This document shows, piece after piece, positions 13,758 to 42,220 of a stretch of 64,000 bases of DNA. A program made the translations under genes and the position numbers. Origin of the DNA: Candidatus Zixiibacteriota bacterium. GTDB lineage: Bacteria; Zixibacteria; MSB-5A5; GN15; FEB-12. The notes under the pieces are model-generated. The model was not told the DNA's origin. It did not search any database and worked only from the letters and a program-made list of their open reading frames with translations. Position 1 is the stretch's first letter. Every line of letters begins with the position of its first letter. Where the stretch lies: the NCBI GenBank assembly GCA_040756055.1, contig JBFLZR010000002.1, positions 212,411-276,410 on the forward strand, read 5' to 3'.

Positions 13758-13840
13758 CTCTCCAACCTCCGCCGACTCGCCCCGACCTGAGAAGCCACAT
13801 TTATGTTGCTTCGCGCTTCGTGATTTATATTATTGCTGCT

Positions 13841-15562: not shown

Positions 15563-15633
15563 CGCTTTAATAATCAAGCGTTGACTATATATTTATAACA
15601 GAATCTACTTCCTCATTTCACAAAGGAGCTCAA

Positions 15634-16683: not shown

Positions 16684-16686
16684 CAG

Positions 16687-19123: not shown

Positions 19124-19138
19124 AAGGTGAGCAGTACC

Positions 19139-20875
19139 ATGAAGCATACAACAATACTCAAAATCACCGGACTGGTAATTTTGACAGTTGCGCTGCTCGC
19201 CGGATGCAGCGACAAAATTACAAACGACTCATCACCCACCGTATCAGTCAAATTACAGGCGCCCATTGCATCTACCGGCTCGGCGGCTGTGGTTAACCTC
19301 TTTGCTCTGACTGTTACCGGCCCCGACATGGAGCCGGTTATGGCGTACCGCTGGTACGAAGGCGGTCCGCTCGTCTTCGAACTCGATGTCCCCGCCGGAT
19401 CAAACCGCCTGTTTGTACTCGAAGGAATCTCCGCGGGACCGGAATTTGACTTCACTTCTCCGCTCGAAGACGTCCTCTACCGCGGCAGCGCCACCGCTGA
19501 CATCGAACCCGGCGAAACTGTCGACCTCAGCATTCAGCTGCTACCGGTTGTCCCCTTGTTCCGCGTCAACCCCTACCTCACTCAGGTTGAATCGGGACAG
19601 CCTTTCGCGTTGACCGTCGAGGCGTTCAACTTGGGTGGACTGAAAGACGCCGAAGTAGGTATTCTGTTCGACCCGACCATCATCGCTTTCGACTCCCTCC
19701 AGAAAGGCTCCACGCTCGACCCCAACGATGTAGTAGAAATAACGGGGAGCCGCACCGATCCTGGCCTGCAGCTTCTGATCTCCGACCCGAACATCTCAAC
19801 CGGCGAAATTGTCGACTCCAACGGTTACTCCGACATGTTAACGCTGCACATGCGCTCGCTCGTCACCCTCGATGCCGGAGCACGCTATGTCGACATCGCC
19901 CCGCTCGGCCTTGTTTCCGTCTCCGGCGATTCCATACCGGTGGCGGGTGTATACTCACAGGCCGCGACCGTCGATATCGGCGCTTACACCCAACCGCTGG
20001 TGCGCCTGTATCCGTCCACTACGGAGATAGCCTCGCGCGAGTCGTTTGCGGTCGATGTCGAACTGGTCAACCTCGCCGGACTGCGAAGTGCCTCACTAAC
20101 GGTGATGTATGATTATTCGATGATCACACCCGACTCAGTCGTCAAAGGAACCGACCTGACCTCAACCGATGTTTTCTCTCCCTTTATCGGGGAAACTCAG
20201 GTGCAGATATCCATCAGCAACTCGACGGAAACGATTGTAGACAGCGACCTGCCCACCAAAGTCGCTACCCTGTATTTTACCATACCGTATATATTCAACG
20301 GAGCCTCCAATCCCGATGGCGTCATCCTCGTCGAGACCTCTACCCAGATGGTCTTCCAACTCGGCGCCTTCGAAAACCTCGACCTAACCCGCATCCCGCC
20401 TGACGATATCACCACCCTGCCCGGTACGGTCGTGATCACCCCTATCGCCGACAGCATCGTCACTTTCCCCGACTCCGGTCTCGAGTCTCTCGTGCGGTGG
20501 AGCATCGGCGACCAGACGACCGACCCTCTCTGGCTGTCCGATGTGATCTTCATAGACTCACTCGACGGCTGGGGTGGAGAGATGCAAATCGAGACAATAG
20601 AAGGCGTGCAGGTACTGGAGAACCTCACGCGTCTCTTTCTCGACGGTAACCTGATTACCGACATCGCCCCTCTGGAGTACCTGACCAACATAAGCGTGCT
20701 CAATCTCGACAACAACTCCATCGTCGATATAACACCGCTGGTCAACAATCCGGGCCTCGCTGAAAATGACACGCTCTATATTGCCGGTAACCCCCTCAGC
20801 GAATCCGCTATTGCGGTCGATATCCCCGCGCTTGAGGCTCGCGGCGTAACAGTATATTGGATGGCTGCGTACTGA
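19139..20875 (+). CDS. Lipoprotein with cohesin-like domains and leucine-rich repeats
   Basis: 578 residues from the ATG at 19139, which has AAAGGTGA in front; a GTG at 19127 is the alternative. The signal peptide ends in LLAGC. Two cohesin-like sheet domains follow an N-terminal sheet domain: about residues 145-285 (LFRVNPYLTQVESGQPFALTV, VGILFDPTIIAFDSL) and 290-425 (VRLYPSTTEIASRESFAVDV, LTVMYDYSMITPDSV). The C-terminus has internalin-like leucine-rich repeats (LENLTRLFLDGNLITDIAPL, ISVLNLDNNSIVDITPL). Both domain types bind proteins, so this is probably the surface-exposed adhesive or scaffolding part of the locus. Last gene before a strong terminator. Confidence 0.8.
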   Translation: MKHTTILKITGLVILTVALLAGCSDKITNDSSPTVSVKLQAPIASTGSAAVVNLFALTVTGPDMEPVMAYRWYEGGPLVFELDVPAGSNRLFVLEGISAGPEFDFTSPLEDVLYRGSATADIEPGETVDLSIQLLPVVPLFRVNPYLTQVESGQPFALTVEAFNLGGLKDAEVGILFDPTIIAFDSLQKGSTLDPNDVVEITGSRTDPGLQLLISDPNISTGEIVDSNGYSDMLTLHMRSLVTLDAGARYVDIAPLGLVSVSGDSIPVAGVYSQAATVDIGAYTQPLVRLYPSTTEIASRESFAVDVELVNLAGLRSASLTVMYDYSMITPDSVVKGTDLTSTDVFSPFIGETQVQISISNSTETIVDSDLPTKVATLYFTIPYIFNGASNPDGVILVETSTQMVFQLGAFENLDLTRIPPDDITTLPGTVVITPIADSIVTFPDSGLESLVRWSIGDQTTDPLWLSDVIFIDSLDGWGGEMQIETIEGVQVLENLTRLFLDGNLITDIAPLEYLTNISVLNLDNNSIVDITPLVNNPGLAENDTLYIAGNPLSESAIAVDIPALEARGVTVYWMAAY

Positions 20876-20956: not shown

Positions 20957-21487
20957 CTACTTCTCTTCCAATATCACCGACTCGGCTACCGTTGCCGTGT
21001 AAATCTTGTCTGTCGGTATCTCCCCCTGACCGCCCTTGATAAACAAGCCAAAAATGAACAGGTACGAGAGGGTTTTCTTGCCTTTACCTTCAGCGGTAAT
21101 AACACCCTTCAATTTGACATTCTCACCGTCGAGCGTCAGGAAAGTCCCCTTCGGCGCCAGATCAACGAACTCCAGCGCTATTTTCCCCGGCTTGCCGCCC
21201 TTGCCGGCCTTCCTGACCTCCTTGACCACCGCCGTGCCGGTGGCCCCTTTCTCAACAATCACCTTGCCGCCTATTTCGATTGGCTCGGCGAGGTTGAAAA
21301 GAATCGGGATACCCTCACCAAGCTCACTCGATGAAATCTTAATAGTAGAGGGAAAACTGACCTTAACAGCCGTTCCCTCCGGAATCTGCACTTTGGCGGC
21401 ATCAGCGACCGGACCTGTCAGCAGCACCGCAACCGCTATAAAGAACGCCAGTACGCCGGCCCTGCCTGGATGTATCATCTTTCTCAT
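20957..21487 (-). CDS. Exported protein of unknown function at the end of the T6SS operon
   Basis: 176 residues, not recognised. A signal peptide or anchor covers about residues 10-30 (GVLAFFIAVAVLLTGPVADA); the rest is predicted beta-rich (EGTAVKVSFPSTIKISS, GKVIVEKGATGTAVVKEV, GTFLTLDGENVKLKG), like small SH3-like or TrbI-like periplasmic sheets, with a short hydrophobic stretch LSYLFIFGLFIKGG near residue 145. It starts 39 bases after the stop of the GTPase gene with a good AAGGAG site, so it is co-transcribed with the T6SS genes. It is a candidate periplasmic partner of the membrane complex, but that is inferred from position only. Confidence 0.6.
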   Translation of the reverse strand: MRKMIHPGRAGVLAFFIAVAVLLTGPVADAAKVQIPEGTAVKVSFPSTIKISSSELGEGIPILFNLAEPIEIGGKVIVEKGATGTAVVKEVRKAGKGGKPGKIALEFVDLAPKGTFLTLDGENVKLKGVITAEGKGKKTLSYLFIFGLFIKGGQGEIPTDKIYTATVAESVILEEK

Positions 21488-21526
21488 TTCCTACTCCTTC
21501 GCTACGAACCTTTACCTGGGTTCACT

Positions 21527-23743
21527 CTATTTCTTTAACCTCGGCAACTGCTCGGACAGCGCCGGCTTGAAACTTATACTTATCTGCTTGCCGAGATTCT
21601 CGAACCTCAGATCACCCTCCATCTCGAAGAGCGAATAATTGCCTCTCAGCACTTTCTTGTCACTCGGGTTATTACCCCAGTTGCAGGGATGCTTCAATTC
21701 GTCGATAGCTATATGAACATCATCGTTCATCTTCCACTCGATCGTATATTCGTCCCCCTCGAAAATCTGATTCTGCTCCGCCCACTTCGGATCTTCACCC
21801 CTCGGCGTTATTTCTATATGCACGTGAGCGTTACCTGGAATAGTCTCAACGCGATAGGTGAACTTCTGCGGCCTTGTCCACTTGCGGGCATCCTGTAAGT
21901 ACCGCTCAATCGCACTTATGCCCTCGGCGTCCGTGTTCGGATTAAGCTCCGATTTCAAACGGGTCAGCCTTTCAACAGCCCGCCCCAACCTGTACTCGGG
22001 ATCCTTATTGCCATTTATCTCCGCGATCAAATCATCGAGCTCCACACTCGCCTTCTTGGCTATTTCTTTTTTCTCCTGAATAGCCGCCTGAACCTGGAGT
22101 TTCTGGTCAAAGGTCTCCCCCAGCTTTTCCTCGGCCGCGCTCAATTCACTGGCATACGTCTTGACATTAAACGCCACCTGCTCGCGAATCTTCGTCGCCA
22201 GCGCCGTATCCTTCCGACCGGCGATATATTCCGAAAAAAGATTCCAGTAACTCAACACCCGGTCACTTCGATCATAAAGCACCGACCCCTCTTCTCCAAC
22301 ATGGTAATTCTCGACCTCTGCTATTACCCGCTCCAGTTCGGACGAAAGTTGAATCGAATCCGTGCTCGGATTCCACTTCGGCCACAGCGTCGAATCCGCG
22401 ACTATCGCATCAAACCGCCCAATAAGCTGATCGAGAGCCTTCACCGCTTCGGAAATATCAAAATCACGATAGAACTGCCGTATCTTACCCGATGGCGCCT
22501 GGAAACTCGGGAAAAACCAGCTCACCAACTTGGAATTCTCATACCGGCTGTAAGCAGTCTGCACCTTGCGCCGCTCATCTGCCGACGCTGTGAAGACGTT
22601 CCCGTGATTCGCTTTCACAATCTCCTGCTCCACGGCCTGTGTGCGAGGAAGCAGATAAAGGAAGTGATAAAGAAACGGAATCGAATACACAATCGCCCAG
22701 ATAAGGCATGCCACGGCCACCGCCTTGGCCACTGACCTCAGTCGTGCCACCCGACGATTATGCAAAATGCCGTTCAGAAGCCAGTAAAACGGCTCCTTTA
22801 CCCCGATCGGCGTTATCTTCTGAGGAGGCTTGTAAATCGAACGCCCCACATCCGTCCCAACCTTCTCCGGAGACTGACCGATACTCGACACGAAGAAAAT
22901 CTGAAAATTGAGCGTCCGCCCAACAACCACCTTGAGAAAATCCGCCATCCGGATAAGCACGTTGCGAACCGTAGCGGTCCATGTGGGATCCGATGATACC
23001 TTCTCGCTTACCAGTATCTTGTTCAGGAACAAATCGAAGTCTTCCGACAGCAGATGCTCATCATCGTGGCTTATCAATACCACCTGATTGTCGCCTGAAA
23101 ATCCCGGAAGAACATCCGCCTTCGTAATCACCAGCGCCACGGGAATCGGAAGACTCCGCGAATGAGGCGCCAGCTTCTCGAGCATGCTCACAAACGACGA
23201 CACCTGTGCCTGGCTCTCCAGCTCCGATCCCATTACCTTGGGATCACAGAAAAATAGCAGGCCGTCACAGCCCGACATGAAATCTATCACCTTGTCTTTG
23301 AATTCATTCGCGCCCGTTATCGCTACCGCCCGTCCGGGATAATCATACGCCACCACCGGAACCTTCCTGTCACCATCGATAATCGCGTTAAATATCAACA
23401 CCCTGTCACGAACCGATGGCTCCGGGAACTTCTGCTCCCCGCGAAGATCCACCACCGTGCCGACATCGGTAACCGTACCGAGTCCCCAGATGGATCTACG
23501 ATGCGTCAGGAATTCAGACGAAGTCGCGTTGTCCGTCACCGAAATCTGAAGGTCCCGGGCAATCTTACACTCCTCATTCAGCACCGTGAAGTAAACCGTC
23601 TTCCCGGCATTGAAATGTCCATAGACTCCAACCCGGATACCCGATGGCCACTCGAACGCCCCGCCACCCGCCTGGTCCTTACCCGTGGCGGCCTTGGCCC
23701 CCTTCTTGGCGAACTTGAACAACTTTTTGAATATCTTAGCCAA
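21527..23743 (-). CDS. Membrane GTPase in the place of TssM
   Basis: 738 residues, starting at TTG with AAGGG in front. N-terminal GTPase domain: G1 GHFNAGKT (42-49), G3 DYPG (134-137), G4 TKAD (207-210). One membrane helix lies at about 341-365 and about 370 residues follow outside the membrane, mostly helical, ending in a beta-rich domain (FTYRVETIPGNAHVHIEI, LRFENLGKQISISFK). Canonical TssM/IcmF is about 1100-1200 residues, has two membrane helices before its P-loop and a D-T-A-G-type G3. This protein has the same overall order (cytoplasmic nucleotide domain, helix, periplasmic part) but is shorter and of a different GTPase type. Its position after tssK and a TssL-like gene suggests it is the inner-membrane core of this T6SS. 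Confidence 0.65.
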   Translation of the reverse strand: MAKIFKKLFKFAKKGAKAATGKDQAGGGAFEWPSGIRVGVYGHFNAGKTVYFTVLNEECKIARDLQISVTDNATSSEFLTHRRSIWGLGTVTDVGTVVDLRGEQKFPEPSVRDRVLIFNAIIDGDRKVPVVAYDYPGRAVAITGANEFKDKVIDFMSGCDGLLFFCDPKVMGSELESQAQVSSFVSMLEKLAPHSRSLPIPVALVITKADVLPGFSGDNQVVLISHDDEHLLSEDFDLFLNKILVSEKVSSDPTWTATVRNVLIRMADFLKVVVGRTLNFQIFFVSSIGQSPEKVGTDVGRSIYKPPQKITPIGVKEPFYWLLNGILHNRRVARLRSVAKAVAVACLIWAIVYSIPFLYHFLYLLPRTQAVEQEIVKANHGNVFTASADERRKVQTAYSRYENSKLVSWFFPSFQAPSGKIRQFYRDFDISEAVKALDQLIGRFDAIVADSTLWPKWNPSTDSIQLSSELERVIAEVENYHVGEEGSVLYDRSDRVLSYWNLFSEYIAGRKDTALATKIREQVAFNVKTYASELSAAEEKLGETFDQKLQVQAAIQEKKEIAKKASVELDDLIAEINGNKDPEYRLGRAVERLTRLKSELNPNTDAEGISAIERYLQDARKWTRPQKFTYRVETIPGNAHVHIEITPRGEDPKWAEQNQIFEGDEYTIEWKMNDDVHIAIDELKHPCNWGNNPSDKKVLRGNYSLFEMEGDLRFENLGKQISISFKPALSEQLPRLKK

Positions 23744-23763
23744 ATCTATCCCTTAACAGAACA

Positions 23764-24678
23764 TCATTTCGACATATTTTGAAGGTTATTCGCCTTTTCC
23801 TGAAAATCGTTGAGCTTCTGATCGGCAATACTGTTCCACCAGGCCGGCACACCGAACGCGATCCCCAGGAAAATCACTATCAGGAGAATGTAAGTAAAAT
23901 AGGCCAGCTTGCGCTGTGTGCTCAACAGACGGAAATAACCAAAGCTCGAAAACGCCCCGCGGAATTTCGCCCCCAGCTCCTTGACCCACGTCATAAATCT
24001 CGACCAGATACTGCTGCTGGCCAGATAATTCCAGTGAGTCAAATACTGCTCGTACAATTTGCCCTTGTCGCCAATTCGATTGAATGTCGCCACCCGCTGA
24101 AGATGAAACTCCAGCGAGGTCCGGTCCTTGATGAGATTCGTCCCCAACGCCAGCTGCCTGCGCTTCAACTCCAGCATCTTGAGCGGGTCAGCCAGACCAT
24201 CAAACTGCTCCGGCGTCATATCGCTCTTCACGCTCTTACCGAATCGATTGATGTACGCCGCCATCTCATCGAGCAGGAACGCGTTCAATCGGAAATTGTG
24301 ATTAAGACTCCCCTCATCAAATAACAGCGGCGCCAGTTTCTGCTCGAAAAAAGGCGCATCTTGCTTGATCGGCCGTAAATTACGGCAGTATGAATACGCC
24401 TGATTCGACCGCCCGTCGGTGTCAACCTCGGCCTCGAACCGCGTGACCAGCACCTGGATTGTAAGCTGCCTGAGATCGGAACTTGTAAGAGGTGACAACT
24501 TGACCTTATCAAGAAGATAGTAATCTACCTCTACCGCCTGATTACGATCCCCCCGCAACGTCTGAAATACGGTCACGATGCCGTTATAGGTCTGAAGGAA
24601 AGCCTCAGTCTCAAATTGAGCATAGTTCTTTTCGTAAGTATCTATGTAGCCAAACAGGTCGTCTATATATGATTTCAT
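23764..24678 (-). CDS. Tail-anchored membrane protein, TssL/DotU-like topology
   Basis: 304 residues: a soluble helical domain of about 255 residues, one membrane helix near the C-terminus (about 259-281, YFTYILLIVIFLGIAFGV) and a short outside tail. This is the topology of TssL/IcmH/DotU, the T6SS inner-membrane protein that contacts the baseplate, and the gene sits between tssK and the GTPase, a common place for tssL. I do not see clear DotU sequence motifs, so the assignment rests on topology and position. It starts 30 bases after the tssK stop. Confidence 0.55.
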   Translation of the reverse strand: MKSYIDDLFGYIDTYEKNYAQFETEAFLQTYNGIVTVFQTLRGDRNQAVEVDYYLLDKVKLSPLTSSDLRQLTIQVLVTRFEAEVDTDGRSNQAYSYCRNLRPIKQDAPFFEQKLAPLLFDEGSLNHNFRLNAFLLDEMAAYINRFGKSVKSDMTPEQFDGLADPLKMLELKRRQLALGTNLIKDRTSLEFHLQRVATFNRIGDKGKLYEQYLTHWNYLASSSIWSRFMTWVKELGAKFRGAFSSFGYFRLLSTQRKLAYFTYILLIVIFLGIAFGVPAWWNSIADQKLNDFQEKANNLQNMSK

Positions 24679-24708: not shown

Positions 24709-26157
24709 TTACATACAATAGATTATCAAATCCGTCTTGCCGAGATTCATCAGCTTCTCGGCGTCGCCGGCCCCGCGGAAAATCATGGTAAGCTGCTTCA
24801 CCGACAACGACTTCATCATATCCTGGGGATGGAGCGCGACCTTGTTTCCGAACGTCGATGTGTCCAGCGTGACCGGATCTGTCTCACCCAGACCGCGAGC
24901 TTCGTTCAAACCAAGCCTCACCTGTATATTCGACCAGATCCTGTCACCGAACAGGTCTTTCGCCATGAGTATCGTTATATCCGACATCGAGCACGGCTTG
25001 GCTATCGCTATCAGAAGATAACTTAAATCTCCCACCTTCTCCAAACGGCAACTGCTGTAATCGGCCAGATTGTACGTCCGGCCATGATAAGTAAGCGTCT
25101 GCGTCGCCACCGCCTGCTCACCCAGCTGATCCTTCTTGACCTGCGCGAAAAACCCAAGAAGCTCTCTCAAAGTCACGAACAGACTGTCAATCGTGGCGAT
25201 ATGTCCACCAATATTGTTGTGATCGTATTCCGTCAACAGAAATCCATCGATGGCGGACATGTACCTCCCGATATCAGAACTCGTCTGCTTGACGAAAAAT
25301 CTCTCGTTAATATAATCCTTCAACCCCGGATGTAGATTCAACAATGTCGAAAACACTCTGAACAGCCGCTTGAAGTGCACAACGAAATACATCGGATGAA
25401 GACTGTTCTTGCCCGCCACCAGTTGATCATGCGATGACGCCAGATGCTGAATGAAATGCCCCACCGTGTCCTTGAATTCCGCCTGAAGAACCGTCTGCTG
25501 ACCGACCGCCGCCGTCGAGGTAAGCATCGCCGCGTACGCCTGCGTCGAAAGCAATATCAACTTCTCCAAACGGCTCTTGAAATCATTGACCGTCTGATTA
25601 AGCCGCTCGTCGGCGAAAAGTGTCACACAGGGCGGGTAAAAACTCGAGGCGTGCGTTACCTCTGAGGCCGCCACCATCAACTCGGCTATCTTGATATACT
25701 GACCTTCGGGAAGATTCGGCTTGTCGCCCAGATGCAGTTTGTAATCGACATTCAAATAAGGAATACGCGGAATCTCTTCAGTCGGATCAGATTCGCCAAC
25801 CTGCTTTTTATTCGAGTTCTCAACACCAATGAAAAGCGAAATCATCCCGTCCTTTACATCCGCTGCAGCCTTAACATGCCCCTCGGTAGACTCATTTATC
25901 TCGATAAAATGCCCATCGGGAGTAATAGCCTGGCAGCGATCAACCTCAACCGTCAACCGACGACCGCTCAAGAGCAGGTTCAATCCAAGCGCCGGCTTCG
26001 CCGAAAGTGATTTCTTGACCAATCCCCAGTTATCGCCGACATGAAACGAATGCCAGCGAACGAGCTCTTCGAAATACCGCTCCTGATCTTTGAGATGCTT
26101 CTGCGTAATAAGCATCCCGTCCTGCCAGTTTACCGAATATAAGTTTAAGTCACCCAT
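24709..26157 (-). CDS. tssK: TssK, T6SS baseplate subunit
   Basis: 482 residues, cytoplasmic. The opening LYSVNWQDGMLITQKHLKDQERYFEEL is the TssK signature (W-x-x-G-M-L-I-x-x-x-H-x-x-x-Q). TssK is a trimeric adaptor, related to phage receptor-binding proteins, that joins the baseplate (TssEFG-VgrG) to the TssL/TssM membrane complex. The length is slightly above the usual 440-460. The C-terminal half (VRLGLNEARGLGETDPVTLDT) is the part that normally touches the membrane complex; here the partners are the unusual TssL-like and GTPase proteins downstream. It follows tssG after 90 bases. Confidence 0.9.
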   Translation of the reverse strand: MGDLNLYSVNWQDGMLITQKHLKDQERYFEELVRWHSFHVGDNWGLVKKSLSAKPALGLNLLLSGRRLTVEVDRCQAITPDGHFIEINESTEGHVKAAADVKDGMISLFIGVENSNKKQVGESDPTEEIPRIPYLNVDYKLHLGDKPNLPEGQYIKIAELMVAASEVTHASSFYPPCVTLFADERLNQTVNDFKSRLEKLILLSTQAYAAMLTSTAAVGQQTVLQAEFKDTVGHFIQHLASSHDQLVAGKNSLHPMYFVVHFKRLFRVFSTLLNLHPGLKDYINERFFVKQTSSDIGRYMSAIDGFLLTEYDHNNIGGHIATIDSLFVTLRELLGFFAQVKKDQLGEQAVATQTLTYHGRTYNLADYSSCRLEKVGDLSYLLIAIAKPCSMSDITILMAKDLFGDRIWSNIQVRLGLNEARGLGETDPVTLDTSTFGNKVALHPQDMMKSLSVKQLTMIFRGAGDAEKLMNLGKTDLIIYCM

Positions 26158-26247: not shown

Positions 26248-27168
26248 TCAAGTTCCAATGTATGATGTATATCCCAGATAATTCCTTTTGCTGCCCTTTC
26301 CTATTGCCACCATCGGCCCAATTGCCCTGACCCTGATGGAATACTCAAGATTGCCCGGCATACAGATTTCTAGAGCTCTCTCTATCCTTTTTCGTATGCG
26401 TCCCCCCGGAAGAAAATCGGAGACACTCTCCACTGGCACATCTTTCACTAACACTTCGTACGCCGAATCATAATCGGTAAACGTCTTACCCAGAATCACT
26501 CCCTCGCCCAGCCGATCCTTGGGCGAACCCAGCCGGTATCGACACGACGATGGAATCTCATGCTGCGACTCGACATTCTCCCTTATCTCGAACTTATATC
26601 CGAACAGTCGCTCGAGCACCCGGCAAACACCTTCGGCATTGGCTCCCCACTGGTTGAACGTGGGCAAAACCGCCGCCCATATCAAGGCCTCGCGCAATTC
26701 GGTCGATTCCGCCTCAACCGCATACTCGAAGACAGACAGAAAATCACTCACCTGCTTGGAGTCAACCAGCCCGAGACCACTTTTCAAATCCCGAAATTTC
26801 GCCGCTGCCCGGTGTCGTATCACTGCCGCATCAAACGGCGACATCAAACAACGCGCGTCATCTTCCCATTTGCCGGTGGAACTTCGGACGCCCCCGAGAC
26901 CGTAAAAAAACTGGTACGGCATATGATCCACGGCGCTCGGGAAACCAATCTTCAGCGTGATGCGTGTCCTTGAATCGAGCCGCGTACCCGGCTGGGGCTC
27001 CTGATACCTGATCTCCCCCCTGTAATTCTCGTGCTCACCGATTGCCTGCAGGTCCACCCGGCTTAAATCAACATTTAACCTCATCAGTGCAATCAAAGCG
27101 GTAGTGTAATGAAGGGGGGATCGCCGGCTGCAAAAATCCGGCATGACAGCTTCCACTGGCGACATCAT
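26248..27168 (-). CDS. tssG: TssG, T6SS baseplate wedge protein
   Basis: 306 residues, a little shorter than usual. Recognised from the N-terminal pattern (MPDFCSRRSPLHYTTALIALMR), the central PYQFFYGLGG motif, which matches the TssG 'F-x-G-L-x-G-P-x-P' region, and the gene order tssE-tssF-tssG-tssK. TssG forms the baseplate wedge with two TssF and one TssE. Its ATG overlaps the tssF stop as ATGA, so the two are translationally coupled, as expected for a complex with fixed ratio. Confidence 0.85.
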   Translation of the reverse strand: MMSPVEAVMPDFCSRRSPLHYTTALIALMRLNVDLSRVDLQAIGEHENYRGEIRYQEPQPGTRLDSRTRITLKIGFPSAVDHMPYQFFYGLGGVRSSTGKWEDDARCLMSPFDAAVIRHRAAAKFRDLKSGLGLVDSKQVSDFLSVFEYAVEAESTELREALIWAAVLPTFNQWGANAEGVCRVLERLFGYKFEIRENVESQHEIPSSCRYRLGSPKDRLGEGVILGKTFTDYDSAYEVLVKDVPVESVSDFLPGGRIRKRIERALEICMPGNLEYSIRVRAIGPMVAIGKGSKRNYLGYTSYIGT

Positions 27169-28835
27169 CGCGCGACTATCTCCACCTGAAATGCGGTATT
27201 CACCGGCGCCCTCGACTTCAAAAACTGTTTCAGGCGCTGCTTCAAAAGACCCGATTCATCCTCGCTGTAAAAATCCTCTGCGCTCACACGCACCTTGACA
27301 AGAACACAACGACGAACCCCACGCCCGGCGCGCTCGATGCTGTTTACGCACTCCACACCCTTGATCCGCGGGTCGAAAGTCTGCGTCCATCCGGCGATCT
27401 CACGGAAATTCAGGGCACGGTCACGGTTGCGAAGCCGCGATGACACCTCGGTCACTATCTGCTTCTCCGTCTTGGCCGGTATCGCCCCCCGCGTGACCGT
27501 GATATTCTCCGCTTCCCCTACCCCCGGATGTCTCTCGTAAAGCTCGCAAATCTGCCCCGCCTCAATGCCATTTGCCGATGTACCCGCTGTCACCGTGTAG
27601 TAAACCGTGATATTGTCCGGCGGCACATCAAGCTGCGATGTGTAATCAAACCAGAGCACCAGACGATCCCCACGCTCCTCCAGCGTATAACACTGATCGG
27701 TCGACTTGATCGACATCTCATGCCGGGGAACATACTCATTGCGGTTGGAATCAATCACACTCGTTATTCCGAGTATGGTGTCGATCGGTTCCGGTATCTC
27801 CACCTCAACCAGCCGATTTCCACCGGTATACTTGTAAGTCGATAGCCCGTTCTTGTTCGTGGCTACGAAACAATTGAAATAAAGCTTGAAACCACTCTTA
27901 ACCTTGACCTTGTCTCCCCCCGCCGGAAGATCCACCCTGATCCAGTAGAGCTTGTCCTGCTCAACGGCATATTTCGTCTCGTCATCGTCAATATGATTAA
28001 CCAAAGCGGCGTCCGCGGATCCCATTTCCCACGTCGAAGTGAACTTGTCGGGCAAAACGATAAAATTGTTCTCAAGCGGCCTGAAAAGATCAACACTGGT
28101 ACGAAGACCTCCCCAATCAACCGGCTCGCCATCGTCGGAGAAAAGGTCCTCGAGGCTCGTCGTCAGGCCCGGGCAAAAACTGCTGTCCTCGTAAAAGCCC
28201 CCCGCCGCCGAACCCGGCACCCAGTACCCCCAGCGCATCTGACGAAGCACTGTCTCCACACCCATCAGGCACAACGTAGCCTTCCTCAAACCGGTCGGCA
28301 TCCCCGAGTACTCAACACCGATATAAATCTGCCCCGCTCCTTTGCTCTTAAGCTGAGCGTCCGAAATCGCCGGCTGACCGCCGTGTCCCGCCGAATTGGG
28401 CGACAGGTCGAAAACCGCATCGTTAAACCGGGCGAAAATATATTTGGCGTCCGCCGCTACCAGCTTCTCGGTCTTCTGCGACGAGAAAAAGAAAGTCTGC
28501 CCGCCTTCACGTTTTTCCTTGAAGAAAAACCGCGTATGAGGGTCGATCTCCACCACCGGGTCAATCGGCTGACAACGCATTATCGTGTAGGCCGGAACCG
28601 GCCAGCGCTGACTCTCGGGAGCCATCGTCCGAATCAGAGAACTTACCGCCACCTCCCAGGTCTGGTCGATACGACGGTCTATTCGTTCAAGCTGGTGGGC
28701 GTAAAGCTGCAAGAGAATCTTAAGCACCGGGTCAAGACGATCCACCGACTCGGGAATCTCCGGGTTCCACTTGCGAAGCTCACGGTGCATGTTGGCAAAA
28801 ATCTGTTCCTTTGACCGCGATTTCTCAATAGCCAT
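27165..28835 (-). CDS. tssF: TssF, T6SS baseplate wedge protein
   Basis: 556 residues, cytoplasmic baseplate subunit related to phage gp6. The N-terminus (FANMHRELRKWNPEIPESVDRL followed by LLQLYAHQLERIDRRID) and the PEsQRWPVPAYTIMRC segment match the TssF pattern of an N-terminal helix bundle followed by a P-x-x-x-x-P motif. The C-terminal part (LRNRDRALNFREIAGWTQTFDPRIKGVECVN) resembles the baseplate J/gp6 fold. Family members are about 580-620 residues, so this is slightly short. It sits between tssE (21-base gap) and tssG (4-base overlap). Confidence 0.88.
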   Translation of the reverse strand: MAIEKSRSKEQIFANMHRELRKWNPEIPESVDRLDPVLKILLQLYAHQLERIDRRIDQTWEVAVSSLIRTMAPESQRWPVPAYTIMRCQPIDPVVEIDPHTRFFFKEKREGGQTFFFSSQKTEKLVAADAKYIFARFNDAVFDLSPNSAGHGGQPAISDAQLKSKGAGQIYIGVEYSGMPTGLRKATLCLMGVETVLRQMRWGYWVPGSAAGGFYEDSSFCPGLTTSLEDLFSDDGEPVDWGGLRTSVDLFRPLENNFIVLPDKFTSTWEMGSADAALVNHIDDDETKYAVEQDKLYWIRVDLPAGGDKVKVKSGFKLYFNCFVATNKNGLSTYKYTGGNRLVEVEIPEPIDTILGITSVIDSNRNEYVPRHEMSIKSTDQCYTLEERGDRLVLWFDYTSQLDVPPDNITVYYTVTAGTSANGIEAGQICELYERHPGVGEAENITVTRGAIPAKTEKQIVTEVSSRLRNRDRALNFREIAGWTQTFDPRIKGVECVNSIERAGRGVRRCVLVKVRVSAEDFYSEDESGLLKQRLKQFLKSRAPVNTAFQVEIVAR

Positions 28836-28856: not shown

Positions 28857-29231
28857 TCAACCCAGCACGAAACTGGCGTCAAACTTCTTTTCCTCGTTGC
28901 CTTCCTTGTAATTGCCCGTAACCCTCACCGCCAGCCCCAGCGAATGCGGCGCACTATCCTCCACACTCACAAACGAAACCGACACATTGTACAATCTCTC
29001 TTCGTATACGTTGATGGCGTTGCGCAGACTGGCGCGGATGTCGGCTTTGTTGGCGGCGTACAAATCCGAGTACTCCTTGTTCCAGATATCACAACCGTAC
29101 TCGGGATCAAAATGCATCGCCCCCTGGCGAGTGCTCAACAGAAGCCCCACCGAGTAAGTGATCGATTCCTGCATCGTCCCTCTCCCGAGGTAACCGTCTC
29201 TCAGCGCAAAAGGTATCACCAGATAATCCAT
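28857..29231 (-). CDS. tssE: TssE, gp25-like baseplate protein
   Basis: 124 residues. The gp25-like signature is visible as FDPEYGCDIWNKEY, followed by a helix and the strand EERLYNVSVSFVSVED. TssE sits at the base of the sheath and completes the wedge with TssF and TssG. It starts 7 bases after the vgrG stop. It is short compared with proteobacterial TssE (about 140-170 residues), which fits non-proteobacterial gp25-like versions. Confidence 0.85.
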   Translation of the reverse strand: MDYLVIPFALRDGYLGRGTMQESITYSVGLLLSTRQGAMHFDPEYGCDIWNKEYSDLYAANKADIRASLRNAINVYEERLYNVSVSFVSVEDSAPHSLGLAVRVTGNYKEGNEEKKFDASFVLG

Positions 29232-29238
29232 AGTCGCT

Positions 29239-30948
29239 CTAATTCAGGTTGATAATCGCGCCCTTAATAACACACTGAGCGCTGGCCTCAACATTCAGGT
29301 TGGCGCTGGCCTTCGATTTCAGGTTGGCGCCGGCATCCAGATTCAGGTCCGCACCGGATTTCACGTCAATCTTCGCGTCACTCTCTATCTTGATGTTCTT
29401 GCCCTTGAGGCTCATATCCCCGGTACTCTCCAGGCTTAAATCTCCATCGGTCTTGATGCTCACCGATGGCGTCTTCATGTTCAGCACGATCTGGTTCTTG
29501 CCATCCTTGGTGCTGATGGAAATCTCCTCCTCGCCATCTTTGTCCGTCAACTTGATCTCGTTGCCGCCGCGGGTGAGAAACACCTTTATCTCGTTCTTGT
29601 CGTCAGTGGTCGCCGGAAGCGTATCCGTACCCGAATACAACGACCCCAGCGCAATCGGCAGATCGGCGTTGCCATTCTCGTACCCCACCAGTACCTCATC
29701 ATCAATCTCCGGGCGACTCAACCACCCGTGATTATTACCCGCGTGCGGCGATACGTAACGAACATAGAGCGTCTCCGTCCCCAGCGCCGGAATCCGCACC
29801 TTGATCCGGCCCAGTCCCTCCGGATCATCAAGACTCGTCACGATACCGCTCTGCAGGTTGGTCAGCGATGGACGCTTCGTCTTCTTTGCGGGGAATGATA
29901 TATCAAGAGGCGAGCTGTAAAACTCGTTATGGTACTTGCCGCTCTCGTCAAAATAATGTACCACCCGGTTAACCCAGTACAAACCGTCAATCTTCCCCAT
30001 CCCCTTAACCTTCACACAATGCCCAACCTTCACCGCCGGGACGATCGACTCACCCGTACAGGCAACCATCCGGCCAACCTGGCTCTCCACGTTGCCTCCG
30101 AGAGTAGAATCAACACTGGCCTGATCCGTCGACTTCTCAGTAGAAATATACCCCGCTTTCGAAAACATCTTCTTCGAGGCATCTATCGAGACCTTGGCCA
30201 TGTCCGATGGCGCCGAACGAAGAACACCGCTGTCAACCTGACCCTCGAGAGCGGTCTTCTGACCGTATTCCCACGATTTCGATGTAAACTGGCTTGGCGC
30301 CGTCCCCAGACCCAGCGAAAAAGCACCCAGCGTCTCACGCCAGTTCAAATCCTCGACCTTCCCGCCCGTGGCCTTGCGAAGCATATACTCCTTACCATCA
30401 TAGTAAGAATAACGACCCGCCGCCTCGGCCAGCCTCGCTATATATTTCCAGTCCGTCTCACGATACTGCACACTGTACTTGATCGACGACCCGGTCGACT
30501 CGACCGTCCCGCGCGTGATTGGATAGTTCGAAACAATCGAACCGATCATGTCACTCGCCGATTGATCCTGGAAATATGCCACCTGCGGCGCGCCATCCAT
30601 CGTTATCGTCGGACTCTTGCCCACAATCAAAACCGTGTTGAGGCCGTCAATACTGTTTTCCAGCCTGACCTCGGTGACCAGCCCGATAAACTCCAATTCG
30701 CGCGACTGCTCCACCTGCCCGCCGGTCGGAGTAATAGTCATAGCCACCGACTTGCCCAGAAACCCGGTGTAATTGCCGGGATCATCAAAATCCTGGTCCC
30801 TCGCGGCTTTGCCAACCTGCTTGATCTGAATCTTCAACTCGTGATGATCATCAACATACTGATCAAGTTGAACCGATGACACGTTGTGCTTTAATTCCTT
30901 GTTGTCGATCTTGATCGTACAAACACAAGGAGTTTGAATTTTTGCCAT
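29239..30948 (-). CDS. vgrG: VgrG (TssI), T6SS spike protein
   Basis: 569 residues from the ATG at 30948 (GGAAAG just upstream; the open frame extends to 31005). Order: gp27/gpD-like domain 1-345 (SVQLDQYVDDHHELKI, YSVQYRETDWKYIARLAEAAGRYSYYDG), gp5 OB-fold about 365-445 (GIVTSLDDPEGLGRIKVRIP, LSRPEIDDEVLVGYENGN), then a triple-stranded beta-prism needle of short repeats (DGDLSLESTGDMSLKGKNIKIES) ending at AIINLN. There is no C-terminal effector, so cargo is probably carried by the PAAR protein and Hcp. The gpD-type layout resembles VgrG of non-proteobacterial T6SS. Confidence 0.93.
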   Translation of the reverse strand: MAKIQTPCVCTIKIDNKELKHNVSSVQLDQYVDDHHELKIQIKQVGKAARDQDFDDPGNYTGFLGKSVAMTITPTGGQVEQSRELEFIGLVTEVRLENSIDGLNTVLIVGKSPTITMDGAPQVAYFQDQSASDMIGSIVSNYPITRGTVESTGSSIKYSVQYRETDWKYIARLAEAAGRYSYYDGKEYMLRKATGGKVEDLNWRETLGAFSLGLGTAPSQFTSKSWEYGQKTALEGQVDSGVLRSAPSDMAKVSIDASKKMFSKAGYISTEKSTDQASVDSTLGGNVESQVGRMVACTGESIVPAVKVGHCVKVKGMGKIDGLYWVNRVVHYFDESGKYHNEFYSSPLDISFPAKKTKRPSLTNLQSGIVTSLDDPEGLGRIKVRIPALGTETLYVRYVSPHAGNNHGWLSRPEIDDEVLVGYENGNADLPIALGSLYSGTDTLPATTDDKNEIKVFLTRGGNEIKLTDKDGEEEISISTKDGKNQIVLNMKTPSVSIKTDGDLSLESTGDMSLKGKNIKIESDAKIDVKSGADLNLDAGANLKSKASANLNVEASAQCVIKGAIINLN

Positions 30949-31024
30949 AAGGACTTTCCGACCATTGTCGTTGTTAAAGACGAAGCCGGGTTGACTGCTG
31001 CCCACCCGGCCCGTCTAACCATGA

Positions 31025-31429
31025 CTATTCTTCCCAGCGATTGTCGAGCGAAGCCCCGCCTATCGTCAACTTGTGGCAGGAAATCTCAAAATACTCGAAA
31101 ACCTGGTCATCCGGCTTGTTCTTAAGGTGCGGAATGCGCTCCTCGTACTTCGTGATGAAGCCCTCTTCCCAGCTAAGCACCTTCATCTCCGAATCATCCG
31201 GCTTCTTAAACGATACCGAACCGGCTTTCCAGTTCGGTTGGCTGGAATCCATCGCCCAGGCAGCGATAGCATCGTTCTCGTCTGACTCACGGGTAACCTT
31301 GATCGTCCCCGCATGGGCGCGATCCGAAGGGCGCCCGGTCTCGTCCTTGGCGGTGTAGATCTCATAAGAAACCTCGTACACATTCTTGTACTTTACACCG
31401 TCAATCTCTAAGATTGGTCTGCGTGCCAT
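31025..31429 (-). CDS. hcp: Hcp (TssD), T6SS tube protein, Bacteroidota-like
   Basis: 134 residues. The pattern EIDGVKYKNVYEVSYEIYTAKDETGRPSD, then a strand-rich core with AGTIKVTRESDEND, WAMDSSQPNWKAGSVSFKK and MKVLSWEEGFITKYEERI, is that of the Bacteroidota-type tube protein (TssD) rather than the proteobacterial Hcp of about 160 residues. Hcp hexamers stack into the tube expelled by sheath contraction. It lies between tssC and vgrG. The short C-terminal tail (ASLDNRWEE) carries no effector domain. Confidence 0.85.
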   Translation of the reverse strand: MARRPILEIDGVKYKNVYEVSYEIYTAKDETGRPSDRAHAGTIKVTRESDENDAIAAWAMDSSQPNWKAGSVSFKKPDDSEMKVLSWEEGFITKYEERIPHLKNKPDDQVFEYFEISCHKLTIGGASLDNRWEE

Positions 31430-31538: not shown

Positions 31539-32960
31539 TTACTTGTCTTTGACGTTGGTCTGGTCACCCTCACCCCAGGCCACGAACTCGATATTGAAAG
31601 TCCGGGCCGGATACTTGGGATTCAAGCTGACCTTGACATCGACCTCCTGACGTTTACGCATCTCCTCGTCGGCGAAAATATCAACCTTGTAATCCTGAAG
31701 AATATTGTCACCACCGGAAATCGCCTTCATGAACTTGTCGATGTCCTTGCGCATCGTATCGATAAACCGCTGATCAATGACCGAAAACGTCTGCTTGTTG
31801 AGATAGTTGCGAAGTGTCTTGTAGACATAATCGTAAGTACGACGGATGGAATATACGTTGAATGTCTCCTTGGTGAATAGCGTCGAAGCACCCATCGCCA
31901 CCGCCGTGCCCTCAAAACTCACCATCGGATTGACGCCCTTCTCGTTAATCTTGCTGGCGTCAGGCTGATTGGCCTTGAAGCGAAGATACTTCGCGTCCGC
32001 AATCTTACCATACTTGAAACCGGCCATCGGCTGCTGCATACCGACCGTCGTGTCACCCTGGTACATCTTGCCGGCCACCGCCGCCGACGGCGGGATCCAC
32101 ATATCATCATCTTCGTACTGATTGGCTCCGCGCGCCATGATGTAATTGGCGAACACCGATACATACTGCTTGTAGTCGTCGATACCCGGAAGGTTCGCGT
32201 ACGCCGGATCCTCCAGCATGTCCATAACCTCCTCGAATTTCTCGAAATTCGGAAGATCCGTCATGACATGTACCTTGTTCGGAAGTCCAAGCTGACGAGC
32301 CACGGTGTCGATGTTCTCCACACTGCCCAGATAGCCCGGAACCACGAACATGGCAAACGCGTCCTTGACGCTCCACTCGCGGAAAAGATCCGATACCGCC
32401 TTCGCAAGCTCCTCGAACTTCTCCCTGTCGTTGGGATCGGTCAACTGTTCGCCGCTCACATTGGCGAAATACGCGTTGACCTTCTCATCCGGCTCCTGCT
32501 GAGCATTGGCAAAGAACTTGTCAACCGCGCGATAGGTCGTCTCCAACCCGCGACTCGCCCGGTGTACCTTCTTCATGTTCTTCTCAAGATTGGCCTCAAA
32601 CTTGGCCGCCTGCTCGTTGATACCCTTGCGAATATCATCCAGGCTGCCGCCCTTGGACAGATGCTCCGTCCAGAGTTTGAGGCGCTGAGCCAGAAGCTGA
32701 CGCTGCTTGGCGAAATCCGCCTTGGTCAAAAATTCCTTGCGCTGAAAATCCTTCTTCGGATCTAGCCACTCCACACCGCGAACAAGATCCCCCTCGGCTG
32801 TCTTAAACGACGGCAAAAGAGCGGCGAGCTTGCTGAAATCACCAAAGGAATCGCCCAAAATCGACGCGAACTCATCTTCCGATATCTTTTCCACCGGGGC
32901 CGCTTCGGGTTGAGCCGACGCCGCCGCGGGCTGCATTTCTCTTTTTTCTTCTTCACCCAT
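31539..32960 (-). CDS. tssC: TssC (VipB), T6SS sheath large subunit
   Basis: 473 residues, cytoplasmic, contractile sheath subunit. After a charged N-terminal tail with Ala/Pro/Glu (1-30) comes a helical domain (LRDI-type region, LDDIRKGINEQAAKFEANL), then the conserved sheath fold ending in QEVDVKVSLNPKYPARTFNIEFVAW. The sections YVSVFANYIMARGANQYEDDD and RRTYDYVYKTLRNYLNKQTFSV fit the TssC C-terminal domain. tssB precedes it by 17 bases in the usual order. It is divergent from proteobacterial TssC, and the identification relies partly on this pairing. Confidence 0.85.
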   Translation of the reverse strand: MGEEEKREMQPAAASAQPEAAPVEKISEDEFASILGDSFGDFSKLAALLPSFKTAEGDLVRGVEWLDPKKDFQRKEFLTKADFAKQRQLLAQRLKLWTEHLSKGGSLDDIRKGINEQAAKFEANLEKNMKKVHRASRGLETTYRAVDKFFANAQQEPDEKVNAYFANVSGEQLTDPNDREKFEELAKAVSDLFREWSVKDAFAMFVVPGYLGSVENIDTVARQLGLPNKVHVMTDLPNFEKFEEVMDMLEDPAYANLPGIDDYKQYVSVFANYIMARGANQYEDDDMWIPPSAAVAGKMYQGDTTVGMQQPMAGFKYGKIADAKYLRFKANQPDASKINEKGVNPMVSFEGTAVAMGASTLFTKETFNVYSIRRTYDYVYKTLRNYLNKQTFSVIDQRFIDTMRKDIDKFMKAISGGDNILQDYKVDIFADEEMRKRQEVDVKVSLNPKYPARTFNIEFVAWGEGDQTNVKDK

Positions 32961-32977: not shown

Positions 32978-33418
32978 CTACTCGCTGAGAAGGTCTATGT
33001 AGTAACGCGCCACCTTCAACAGTGCCTCTTTCTTTTCCTTGTCATCCAGAGTCTTCTTGAGCGCGTTGTTCTTCTTCAACTGCTTGTCCAGATCGGCAAG
33101 CATCTCCTTGCTGTAATAGGTCTGACGAAGCGCGTCATTGTTCTCGATCAACTCCTTCGATGTGAAGTCCTTCATCGACTTCACCTCAAAATGCGCGTTG
33201 ATCGACTGACCATCCGGATCCTCCAGCTCCGCCTCGAACGAAGGCCGGAACTTCTCGAACACCTCCTTGAGGTTGTTGCACCTGACCGGTGTCACGTCGC
33301 TGTCCTCGTCATTGTTCAACTTCGCCGCGTACAGCAGCTTGTTGGACGGCAGCAACTCAACCGGTACCGAATCATCTTTCTTGACCCGCTCGGTTGCACC
33401 AAGTATGAATTTGGCCAT
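32978..33418 (-). CDS. tssB: TssB (VipA), T6SS sheath small subunit
   Basis: 146 residues, partner of TssC in the sheath. The central motif AHFEVKSMKDFTSKEL corresponds to the TssB 'I-x-F-x-S-M-x-D-F-x-P' segment, and the C-terminal part is a Lys-rich helix (MLADLDKQLKKNNALKKTLDD) as in TssB, where ClpV recognises the contracted sheath. It follows the two-gene ClpV by 28 bases and precedes tssC by 17 bases. Confidence 0.85.
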   Translation of the reverse strand: MAKFILGATERVKKDDSVPVELLPSNKLLYAAKLNNDEDSDVTPVRCNNLKEVFEKFRPSFEAELEDPDGQSINAHFEVKSMKDFTSKELIENNDALRQTYYSKEMLADLDKQLKKNNALKKTLDDKEKKEALLKVARYYIDLLSE

Positions 33419-33446: not shown

Positions 33447-34544
33447 TTAACTTGTTTCCTTTTTAGTAAAGACGTAACCTCCGTCCTTTACTTCAACCAA
33501 AATATTATCACCCGGAGATACCGCCCCTGTGATTATATCAACCGATAAACGGTTTATAATATCCTTCTCTATTATCCGCTGAATCGGCCTTGCCCCAAGC
33601 TCCGGCGTATATCCATCCTCGGCGAGCTTGTGCCGCGCCTCAGGCGTAAGTTCAGCCTTGATATCCAGGTCCTTCAACAGATCTGTCAGGTTGTTGAATT
33701 CCAGCCCGGCAATCACTTCCACCTGATCCTGGGTAAACGAATGATACACGATAATATCATTTAACCGGTTTAGAAACTCCGGACGGAACTTGCTGAACAA
33801 AAAGCCGCGCACTTCCTCCATATCAACCTCACGCCCCTCACGGTCCGCCTCGAGAATCTTGTCAGCGGCGTAATTCGAGGTCAACACTACCAGCGTATTC
33901 GAAAAATCCACCGTACGGCTCTGACCGTCCGTCAAACGGCCATCATCGAGCAACTGAAGCAGCAGATTAAACACATCGGGATGCGCCTTCTCGACCTCGT
34001 CAAACAAAACAATAGAGAACGGCTTGCGTCTGACCGCCTCGGTCAACACCCCGCCCTCCTCATAACCGACATACCCGGGCGGAGCGCCAATCATCTTGGC
34101 CACCGAATGCTTCTCCATATACTCCGACATATCCAGCCGGACCATGGCATTCTTGTCATCGAACAAAAACTCCGCCAGAAGCTTCGGCAAATGCGTCTTG
34201 CCCGTTCCCGTCGGACCCAAAAACAAAAATGAACCAACCGGCTTGTTTTTGGCCTTCAGACCCGCGCGTGATTTTCTTATGGCGTTCGATATCGCGATAA
34301 TCGCCTTCTCCTGGCCGACTATCTTCCTTTTCAGGAATGATTCCATGTTGATCAGACGGTCTTTCTCCGCCGTCAACATCTTTGCCACCGGAATCCCTGT
34401 CCTGCGGGCAACCACCGCCGCTATCTCGGCGTCATCAATCTTGTCCTCAAGCTTGTCAACCGCCGCCTTCAGCGCTTCAAACTTCTCGGCCCGCTCGGCA
34501 AAATCCTTTTTCGCCAGCTCTATATCAAACTTTCCGATCTTCAT
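33447..34544 (-). CDS. clpV2: ClpV second half (AAA2 module) as a separate gene
   Basis: 365 residues that match only the second half of a ClpB/ClpV unfoldase. A coiled-coil start (FDIELAKKDFAERAEKFEALKAA) leads to the VVARRTGIPVAKM linker, Walker A GPTGTGKT (110-117), pore-loop GYVGYEEGG, Walker B IVLFDE (178-183), and the C-terminal D2-small domain (GARPIQRIIEKDI). The ATG overlaps the stop of the first-half gene as ATGA and has its own GGAGG site 6 bases upstream, so this is a true second gene and not a frameshift. Together the two proteins should disassemble contracted TssBC sheath. The symbol is descriptive. Confidence 0.85.
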   Translation of the reverse strand: MKIGKFDIELAKKDFAERAEKFEALKAAVDKLEDKIDDAEIAAVVARRTGIPVAKMLTAEKDRLINMESFLKRKIVGQEKAIIAISNAIRKSRAGLKAKNKPVGSFLFLGPTGTGKTHLPKLLAEFLFDDKNAMVRLDMSEYMEKHSVAKMIGAPPGYVGYEEGGVLTEAVRRKPFSIVLFDEVEKAHPDVFNLLLQLLDDGRLTDGQSRTVDFSNTLVVLTSNYAADKILEADREGREVDMEEVRGFLFSKFRPEFLNRLNDIIVYHSFTQDQVEVIAGLEFNNLTDLLKDLDIKAELTPEARHKLAEDGYTPELGARPIQRIIEKDIINRLSVDIITGAVSPGDNILVEVKDGGYVFTKKETS

Positions 34545-36001
34545 TTTTCACCTCCCGCCTTCGCCTCGAGGCGATGCCCCCAGAAACCACTCATGCGATC
34601 CATATTCCGGATAAACTCGTCATATGCCAACTCGAGCTTATCGAAATCCTCCTTGTGCTTCGCCGGGTCCTTACCCTCACACTGCTTGAAAAGCTTCTCG
34701 AGCTCCACTATCTGAGTCTCCAAAAGCGGAATCTTGACCTTGGAGAACTCTTTCTTGACATGATACTCCGAGGCCGCCTCATCGATAATATCCAGAGCGA
34801 TATCCGGAAGATTCCTCTCGCTCAGATACCTCTGCGAATACCTCACCGCCCCGACAATCGCCTCTTCGGTATAGGTAATCTTGTGGTGTTCTTGGTATTT
34901 CGGAACTACCCCTTTAGCGATCCTGACCGCATCATCAAAATTCGGCTGCCCGACCTTCACCTTCTCAAAACGCCTGTCGAGAGCCTTGTCTTTCTCCAGG
35001 TGCTTGCTGTACTCGTCCTCCGTCGTGGCCCCTATCAGGCGAATCTGCCCTCTGGCCAGAGCCGGTTTTATCAGATTCCCGGCATCCATCCCTCCGCCGC
35101 CGCCGGCTCCCGATATAGAGTGAATCTCATCGATAAACAGGATTATCTTCCCGCCGGACTTGACAACTTCTCCAATCAGTGTCTTAAAACGTTCCTCGAA
35201 CTCCCCTTTGTATTTTGCGCCGGCAACCAGCGAACCCATATCCAGCGACATTACCTTAACACCCTCGAGAGCCTTCGGAACAGCCTTGTCTATCACTGCC
35301 TGGGCAAACCCCTCTACTATCGCCGACTTGCCAACACCCGCCCCCCCGACAAGCACCGGGCTGTTTTTGCGACGGCGAAGCAATATCTGGATAACCTGCT
35401 GAAGTTCGGACTCACGGCCTATCATCGGGTCAAATTCACCGGCCGCCGCCTGATTCGTCATATCGATACAATATTTCAGCGTCCCGGCAACCTCCCTCCT
35501 CCCCTCAACGGGAGCCGCTTTCCCCTCACCCGGCTTCGATGGTGTCGAGGCGATCTCTTCCACCGCCTTGCTCTCGGCTATAGCGCGGTAGATATCCTCT
35601 TTGGCAATACCGATTTTCTCGCGAAGATACGGGGCCAGCGAAGATCTCGGGTCGAAAATGGCTATCAAGATATGCTCCGGCTCAACCAGCGCGTCGTAAA
35701 GCTTCCCCTTCTCATCCACAGCCTGAGCAAGCACCGTTTGAGTGGCCGGCGAGGCCGTCAAATTCTCTCGCGCTGTGGCCCGGCTGGACTGCTCCTTCAG
35801 GTATGTCTCCGTCAAAGAAACAATACCGCTCGGATTCTTCTCCAACTGCGCCAGAATCGATTCCACCTCGGAGCTCTCCTGCCGCAAAGTAGCTATCAGA
35901 AGATGCTCCACCTCGATCTCGGCGTGCCGAAATTCGGCGGCCACTTCCTTGGCTATCTTGATTATCGATCTTGAATCTGATGAATAACTGGCAATGTCCA
36001 T
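34541..36001 (-). CDS. clpV1: ClpV first half (N-domain and AAA1) as a separate gene
   Basis: 486 residues: Clp N-domain repeats (about 1-145; [35 protein letters not shown]), linker, AAA1 with Walker A GGAGVGKS (219-226), Walker B ILFIDE (287-292) and IGATTEDEY, then a short helix hairpin in the place of the M-domain ([20 protein letters not shown]) where the protein stops. Usual ClpV has about 850-900 residues in one chain; the sum of both genes here is 851. It is the first gene of the core T6SS operon, 76 or so bases after a strong promoter. It could also be read as a ClpC-like protein, but the adjacent sheath genes favour ClpV. Confidence 0.88.
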
Positions 36002-38248: not shown

Positions 38249-38250
38249 AT

Positions 38251-39159: not shown

Positions 39160-39175
39160 GGAACTCGCTCTGCCG

Positions 39176-39619: not shown

Positions 39620-39625
39620 TCTCCC

Positions 39626-40531: not shown

Positions 40532-40546
40532 TGGCTTCCACCCTCA

Positions 40547-42208: not shown

Positions 42209-42220
42209 GTAAGTGCAATC

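Follow-up and report, generated by a model that had tools for sequence, protein, structure and literature searches.

A type VI secretion system of Zixibacteria with a Bacteroidota-like tail and a candidate membrane complex of its own

Operon content and conservation

The stretch of DNA analysed here (hereafter the window) comprises 64,000 nucleotides from a Candidatus Zixiibacteriota bacterium (GenBank assembly GCA_040756055.1, contig JBFLZR010000002.1, positions 212,411 to 276,410). It carries a type VI secretion system (T6SS) operon that lies wholly on the minus strand, from 36001 down to 20957, with genes in the order split ClpV, TssB, TssC, Hcp, VgrG, TssE, TssF, TssG and TssK, followed by three genes for proteins of 304, 738 and 176 residues. 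A sequence-only reading of the window had singled out these last three genes, downstream of tssE, tssF, tssG and tssK, as a possible new type of T6SS membrane anchor, and their positions and strand were confirmed. We consider it likely that the operon encodes a complete T6SS whose tail belongs to the T6SSiii (Bacteroidota-like) lineage and which has its own membrane complex, made of these three proteins.

The first of the three (23764..24678) is a tail-anchored protein with an all-helical cytoplasmic domain and a single transmembrane helix near the C-terminus, at residues 259-277 in a hydropathy scan. The second (21527..23743) is a GTPase, proposed below as a candidate homolog of TssM in reduced form. 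Its G domain spans residues about 33-330 (22754..23647), as judged from fold and profile matches, and contains the P-loop GHFNAGKT at residue 42, DYPG at 134 and TKAD at 207. Hydropathy places one transmembrane helix at residues 341-359 (22667..22723) and none preceding the P-loop, so that the description of a single-pass GTPase with these motifs was borne out, and the part outside amounts to about 360 residues, close to the 370 first estimated. The third protein, exp176 (20957..21487), is exported: the hydropathy scan gives an N-terminal signal-like helix only, the signal peptide is without a lipobox cysteine, and a small beta domain is predicted for it.

The search for this gene set was extended to 132 Zixibacteria genomes. 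The GTPase and the Bacteroidota-type TssC were each found in 65 of them; 63 genomes have both and 65 have neither, while two have the GTPase alone and two have TssC alone, and these four exceptions are all incomplete genomes (G079, 64%; G085, 77%; G118, 69%; G095, 88%). A survey of gene order in related genomes, as the sequence-only reading had proposed, found the succession tssE, tssF, tssG, tssK, 304-residue gene, GTPase gene and exp176 repeated in most loci read. The presence of the GTPase in so many genomes, together with this recurring order, therefore puts the observation far beyond chance.

Conservation is also informative where the order breaks. The 304-residue gene remains adjacent to tssK, and exp176 comes next after the GTPase gene at almost every locus, even where both sit apart from the tail genes. 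In three genomes (G078, G114 and G115; loci L064, L166, L167 and L168) the cluster is split in two: the 304-residue gene stays with the tail genes and TssK (L166, L167, L168), and the GTPase gene lies hundreds of kilobases off, beside exp176 in G078 or beside an exp176-like gene in G114 and G115. This partition fits a docking pair and a periplasm-spanning pair, as support for such an arrangement and not as proof of it. More distant versions are found in families f5, f15 and f16 and in genome G054, where a smaller GTPase of 620-690 residues frequently has an exp176-like gene close by, on the opposite strand; a profile of these shorter GTPases aligns with the main family across 643 columns.

The set, or part of it, also appears in records named as Krumholzibacteriota (L073, L085, L093, L094), Latescibacterota (L069) and Eisenbacteria (L096), the part-sets being at contig ends or in a looser gene order. 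In viral contigs, no relative of the GTPase was found. In a TssC tree, the Krumholzibacteriota rows (L073, L085, L092, L093) nest among those of Zixibacteria, which suggests transfer from phylum to phylum or misnamed bins. Separately, the names Calditrichota and Ignavibacterium on two public records (L055 and L061) are probably wrong, since their loci match those of two Zixibacteria genomes (G017 and G076).

A T6SSiii-type tail and the search for known anchors

The baseplate had been taken for an ordinary one, a view that profile comparisons overturned. Reference sets of 1-5 Bacteroidota (T6SSiii) and 3-15 Pseudomonadota (T6SSi) sequences were used in hhalign, and with these small sets the probabilities for T6SSiii against T6SSi were 99.4 against 89.7% for TssB, 100 against 3.1% for TssC, 99.4 against 5.8% for TssD, 99.3 against 22.9% for TssE, 99.5 against 8.2% for TssF and 99.8 against 98.6% for TssK, whereas TssG scored higher for T6SSi (97.4 against 98.7%). 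By these comparisons the tail and baseplate are assigned to the Bacteroidota (T6SSiii) lineage and not to that of Pseudomonadota. A TssC tree with 36 rows has a fully supported branch that parts the new rows from the five Bacteroidota rows; the tree is unrooted, the parting branch is long and the Bacteroidota rows are few.

The genes concerned, all on the minus strand, are TssB (32978..33418, profile matches), TssC of Bacteroidota type (31539..32960; PF17541, 2.6e-71), Hcp/TssD of Bacteroidota type (31025..31429; PF17642, 9.5e-22), VgrG (29239..31005, family match), TssE (28857..29231; PF04965, 6.8e-15), TssF (27165..28835, profile matches), TssG (26248..27168; PF06996, 3.6e-18) and TssK (24709..26157). 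Residues 1-350 of TssK are of the T6SSiii kind, and about 130 C-terminal residues extend beyond the T6SSiii length. This C-terminal domain (about residues 350-482; 24709..25110) matches neither T6SSi nor T6SSiii TssK in hhalign (0.1-0.2%). Because TssK contacts the membrane complex in both T6SSi and T6SSiii (PMC10781749), the new domain would be a natural docking site.

ClpV is encoded by two adjoining genes at 33447-36001, the N-terminal half of 486 residues with Clp_N and D1 (34541..36001) and the C-terminal half of 365 residues with D2 (33447..34544), whose open reading frames have 4 bases in common. All 13 genomes checked from families f1, f2, f4 and f5, the home genome included, have the split gene, and relatives in f15 and f16 have an unsplit ClpV of 813 residues. 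Upstream of clpV, at 36173-43294, lies a likely cargo module that encodes a PAAR protein extended by a beta domain, a peptidoglycan-binding protein that has an HExxH motif resembling that of metallopeptidases, a DcrB-domain protein (possibly a chaperone), HEAT repeats and two unknown proteins.

Could the operon encode a contractile injection system that requires no envelope anchor, similar to T6SSiv or to extracellular contractile injection systems (eCIS), with the three proteins serving some other purpose? Nothing specific favours this, and it is highly improbable given that TssK and both ClpV halves are present, that TssC and TssD belong with those of T6SSiii, and that the membrane genes come directly after tssK.

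Known anchor proteins were sought by their family models. PF06761 and PF06744 (TssM), PF09850 (TssL) and PF12790 (TssJ) have no match in the home genome, which is 97.7% complete; thus no canonical tssJ, tssL or tssM was found elsewhere in that genome that could serve this cluster, and the observation that TssJ is missing held, exp176 being neither a lipoprotein nor TssJ-like. Across the 132 genomes of the phylum, the TssL/DotU signature PF09850 occurs in 12 and PF12790 in 5. Canonical TssL and/or TssM of T6SSi type were detected in 13 Zixibacteria genomes (loci L112-L123), of which one (G083) also has the new GTPase and 12 lack it. Since canonical genes are detected in these 13 genomes, the searches work within the phylum, and the new set is therefore no supplement to a hidden TssJLM complex.

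The expected absence of the TssN-R proteins was upheld in part. TssN (PF17555) has no match in any of the 132 genomes; 14 control genomes are silent as well, and the model does detect the TssN of Bacteroides and Hymenobacter. TssO and TssR, the other two members with specific family models in these scans, have no match among the proteins scanned from the cluster and the adjacent operon, a genome-wide search for these two not having been made, and both models recover their Bacteroides proteins in control searches. When the TssN, TssO/Q, TssP and TssR profiles were compared directly with the three anchor proteins, nothing was found.

Ancestry and proposed arrangement of the three proteins

The GTPase offers most of the evidence on ancestry. 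Its AlphaFold2 model (pLDDT 83.8, pTM 0.49) consists of the G domain, a 63-residue helix (316-378) that holds the transmembrane segment, helical bundles and then a C-terminal beta domain at about residues 626-725 (21569..21868), which has a weak likeness to the C-terminal domain of TssM. The fold of the G domain resembles those of Ras and Arl (Z 15.6, rmsd 2.6 over 163 residues). In a fold search with the whole GTPase, the listed matches are small GTPases (Arl, Rab and Ras, also YcjX), and TssM is not among the matches listed, small GTPases filling the list and masking the periplasmic part. The DYxG motif is conserved in 49 of 49 relatives of the GTPase (DFxG in 3 of them), whereas the canonical TssM proteins examined have DTAG in nearly all cases. 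GTP binding is expected from the intact motifs.

At the level of sequence families, DO-GTPase2 (PF19993) was matched by the G domain in every member scanned (38 of 38 and 11 of 11; best 2.9e-9), although the score of the window GTPase itself, 20.9, stays below the cut-off of 27. Weak matches to IcmF-related_N were obtained for 20 of 38 and 6 of 11 members (best 6.5e-4). No GAP1 domain, as would belong to a partner protein, was found among the neighbours of the GTPase that were scanned. Against TssM profiles, the G domain gave probabilities of 53-73%. The C-terminal domain scored 28.5 against TssM, compared with a mean of 13 and a best of 25.3 for 40 column-shuffled profiles, and along TssM the last segment alone exceeds background. 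Because the two signals are colinear, each at its proper place, a reduced TssM is favoured, and we lean slightly towards the GTPase being a distant, much shortened TssM rather than a new invention. The N-terminal transmembrane hairpin of TssM and most of its periplasmic stalk, several hundred residues, have no counterpart in the GTPase.

The 304-residue protein has a confident model (pLDDT 86.6, about 90 or more across most of the first 220 residues) that is all helical. It had been called TssL-like, a description that stands for its topology (a tail anchor) and its gene position only. No similarity to TssL was found by Pfam, HMMER or hhalign: PF09850 has no match in 41 members of the family up to E 1, and hhalign against TssL gave 0.1-1%, compared with 99.9% for a control of Pseudomonadota TssL against canonical Zixibacteria TssL. 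Foldseek searches of the PDB and BFVD with the model gave nothing at E <= 0.001, and TssL is not among the matches listed; a second fold comparison reached a top Z of 7.3, with unrelated helical proteins. Pfam and NCBIfam gave nothing credible for either the 304- or the 176-residue protein, and a PDB sequence search with three profiles returned chance matches alone. The 304-residue protein may have a new fold or be a diverged TssL.

In exp176, aligned members share a signal-like N-terminus, in none of them with a lipobox cysteine, and a conserved hydrophobic stretch, LSYLFIFGLFIKGGQGE. No similarity to TssJ was found by hhalign, and Pfam gave no match. A resemblance to the C-terminal domain of VirB10 was considered as a tentative idea. 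The exp176 profile also finds further proteins elsewhere in the phylum, so that exp176 is part of a wider family of envelope proteins (L140-L153), built on a beta domain into which a glycine-zipper or a hydrophobic hairpin is inserted. Many of these further proteins are lipoproteins in which a glycine-zipper hairpin replaces the hydrophobic stretch, LSYLFIFGLFIKGG, and the family is also present in genomes that have no T6SS. A TssJ substitute could well take such a form, a small beta domain whose membrane-active hairpin lies at the outer membrane.

Two accounts of ancestry are sub-cases of the likely explanation, that of a T6SSiii-type tail with its own three-protein complex, and differ on where the anchor came from. 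It is plausible, if short of probable, that the GTPase and the 304-residue protein are a very divergent TssM and TssL, with the whole complex derived from T6SSi, shortened and fast evolving, and exp176 standing in for TssJ. T6SSi shares the order tssK-L-M and the topologies, and the G and C-terminal domains are weakly and colinearly similar to TssM, but this account must accommodate the lost hairpin and stalk, a TssL similarity that goes undetected in profile comparisons as well as among the listed fold matches, and tail genes that are T6SSiii-like rather than T6SSi-like. Recruitment without homology to TssJLM, in which the system independently took up a GTPase of DO-GTPase2 type and a helical protein with a tail anchor, much like the origin proposed for TssNQOPR in Bacteroidota, we entertain more tentatively. 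That DO-GTPase2 is the top family in every member scanned speaks for it, as do the lack of relatives of the 304-residue protein and the occurrence of the exp176 family in genomes free of T6SS, whereas it is to TssM that both the G domain and the C-terminal beta domain point, in an order that the two proteins share. In its fullest form, this account would have an independently assembled complex, consisting of a single-pass GTPase of DO-GTPase2 type, a helical tail-anchored protein that docks the tail and has a new fold, and an outer-membrane component that is not a lipoprotein. The new TssK C-terminal domain would connect this complex to a T6SSiii-type tail, an arrangement that would have arisen early in Zixibacteria and is also found in other phyla; we hold this version with equal reserve.

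A convergent operon at 13820-20875 encodes a Ser/Thr kinase, a CsgG-domain protein, a lipoprotein with TPR and CsgG domains, a beta-barrel-like protein and a cohesin/LRR lipoprotein. In about 20 genomes that have this T6SS it adjoins exp176, and it is also found where this T6SS is lacking; the barrel gene occurs more often alongside this T6SS (54 of 67 genomes) than in the other genomes (20 of 65). The operon is thus a candidate accessory or outer-membrane partner. That it is instead the true anchor, or that the anchor lies elsewhere again, with the three genes being accessory, is improbable: the proximity to exp176 and the frequency of the barrel gene would agree with it, but the operon is absent or remote in several genomes with this T6SS and present in some that lack it, while the GTPase tracks the sheath almost perfectly.

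In the arrangement we favour, the 304-residue protein would present its helical domain to the cytoplasm and dock onto the baseplate by way of the TssK C-terminal domain peculiar to this lineage, so that the cytoplasmic platform would be formed by this tail-anchored protein, perhaps with the G domain. The GTPase would cross the inner membrane once, and its periplasmic residues, first a helical and then a beta domain, would traverse the periplasm. At the far side, exp176 would meet the beta domain of the GTPase in the place of TssJ, perhaps with its conserved hydrophobic stretch inserted in the outer membrane. One joint complex, each of these contacts, a role at the outer membrane and any GTP use are inferred, whereas the analysis itself shows gene content, topology by hydropathy, conserved gene order, co-occurrence with the sheath, absence of canonical genes, the lineage of the tail and a weak similarity to TssM.

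Several points weigh against this arrangement or against the shared ancestry with TssM. The similarity to TssM is below the usual thresholds, neither domain signal being significant alone, and the G domain is closer to DO-GTPase2 than to IcmF-related_N. Neither sequence nor fold searches found a relative of the 304-residue protein, whose role is assigned from topology and position. The distant versions of the system place the exp176-like gene on the opposite strand or on a different contig, and the outer-membrane component could instead sit in the convergent CsgG/beta-barrel operon. Finally, the co-occurrence of the GTPase with TssC owes part to shared descent, yet it spans many families and genera. 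The proposal of a new anchor type holds insofar as the set is neither TssJLM nor TssN-R and is kept across the phylum, and is tempered by a GTPase that is probably related to TssM, although a clear full-length match to TssM was not obtained.

Comparison with known secretion systems

Open-licence papers in PMC, to which the search was confined (preprints and subscription papers were outside its scope), yielded no description of a T6SS in Zixibacteria. A published survey of Bacteroidota T6SS found T6SSiii confined to that phylum and invariably accompanied by TssNQOPR, complete or in part, and left undecided whether membrane complexes were swapped or arose separately (PMC10781749). The system described here shares with the Bacteroidota T6SSiii its tail and baseplate lineage, that is TssB, C, D, E, F and K (PMC10781749). 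It differs in that no TssN, TssO or TssR was found, a tail-anchored protein, a GTPase and an exported protein being present instead, and also in the extra C-terminal domain of TssK, the ClpV split in two and hosts outside Bacteroidota. A T6SSiii-type tail thus exists outside Bacteroidota with a different anchor, one with TssM-like traits. The order of events thereby becomes testable: an original anchor of TssM-like kind may have been replaced in Bacteroidota, or anchors may have been exchanged on more than one occasion. In addition, a T6SS is revealed in many genomes that searches based on TssJLM or TssN would call incomplete.

With the TssJLM complex of Pseudomonadota T6SSi, the new set has in common the order tssK-L-M, a tail-anchored cytoplasmic protein and, in the inner membrane, a nucleotide-binding protein that has a beta domain at the end of its periplasmic part. 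However, the GTPase has 738 residues compared with about 1100-1180 in TssM, one transmembrane helix and DYxG in place of DTAG, and the set has no TssL sequence signature and no lipoprotein TssJ. The T6SS of Acinetobacter likewise has a membrane complex without TssJ, but it retains TssL and TssM (PMC10564176), neither of which is recognisable here. DO-GTPase2 (PF19993), of the DO-GTPase systems (PMC7159879), is the family that the G domain of every member scanned matches best; in contrast to those systems, the G domain is here joined to a transmembrane helix and a periplasmic part, within a T6SS operon and without a recognised GAP1 partner. Set beside these systems, the Zixibacteria operon makes it probable that the T6SS membrane anchor was remade on more occasions than previously known.

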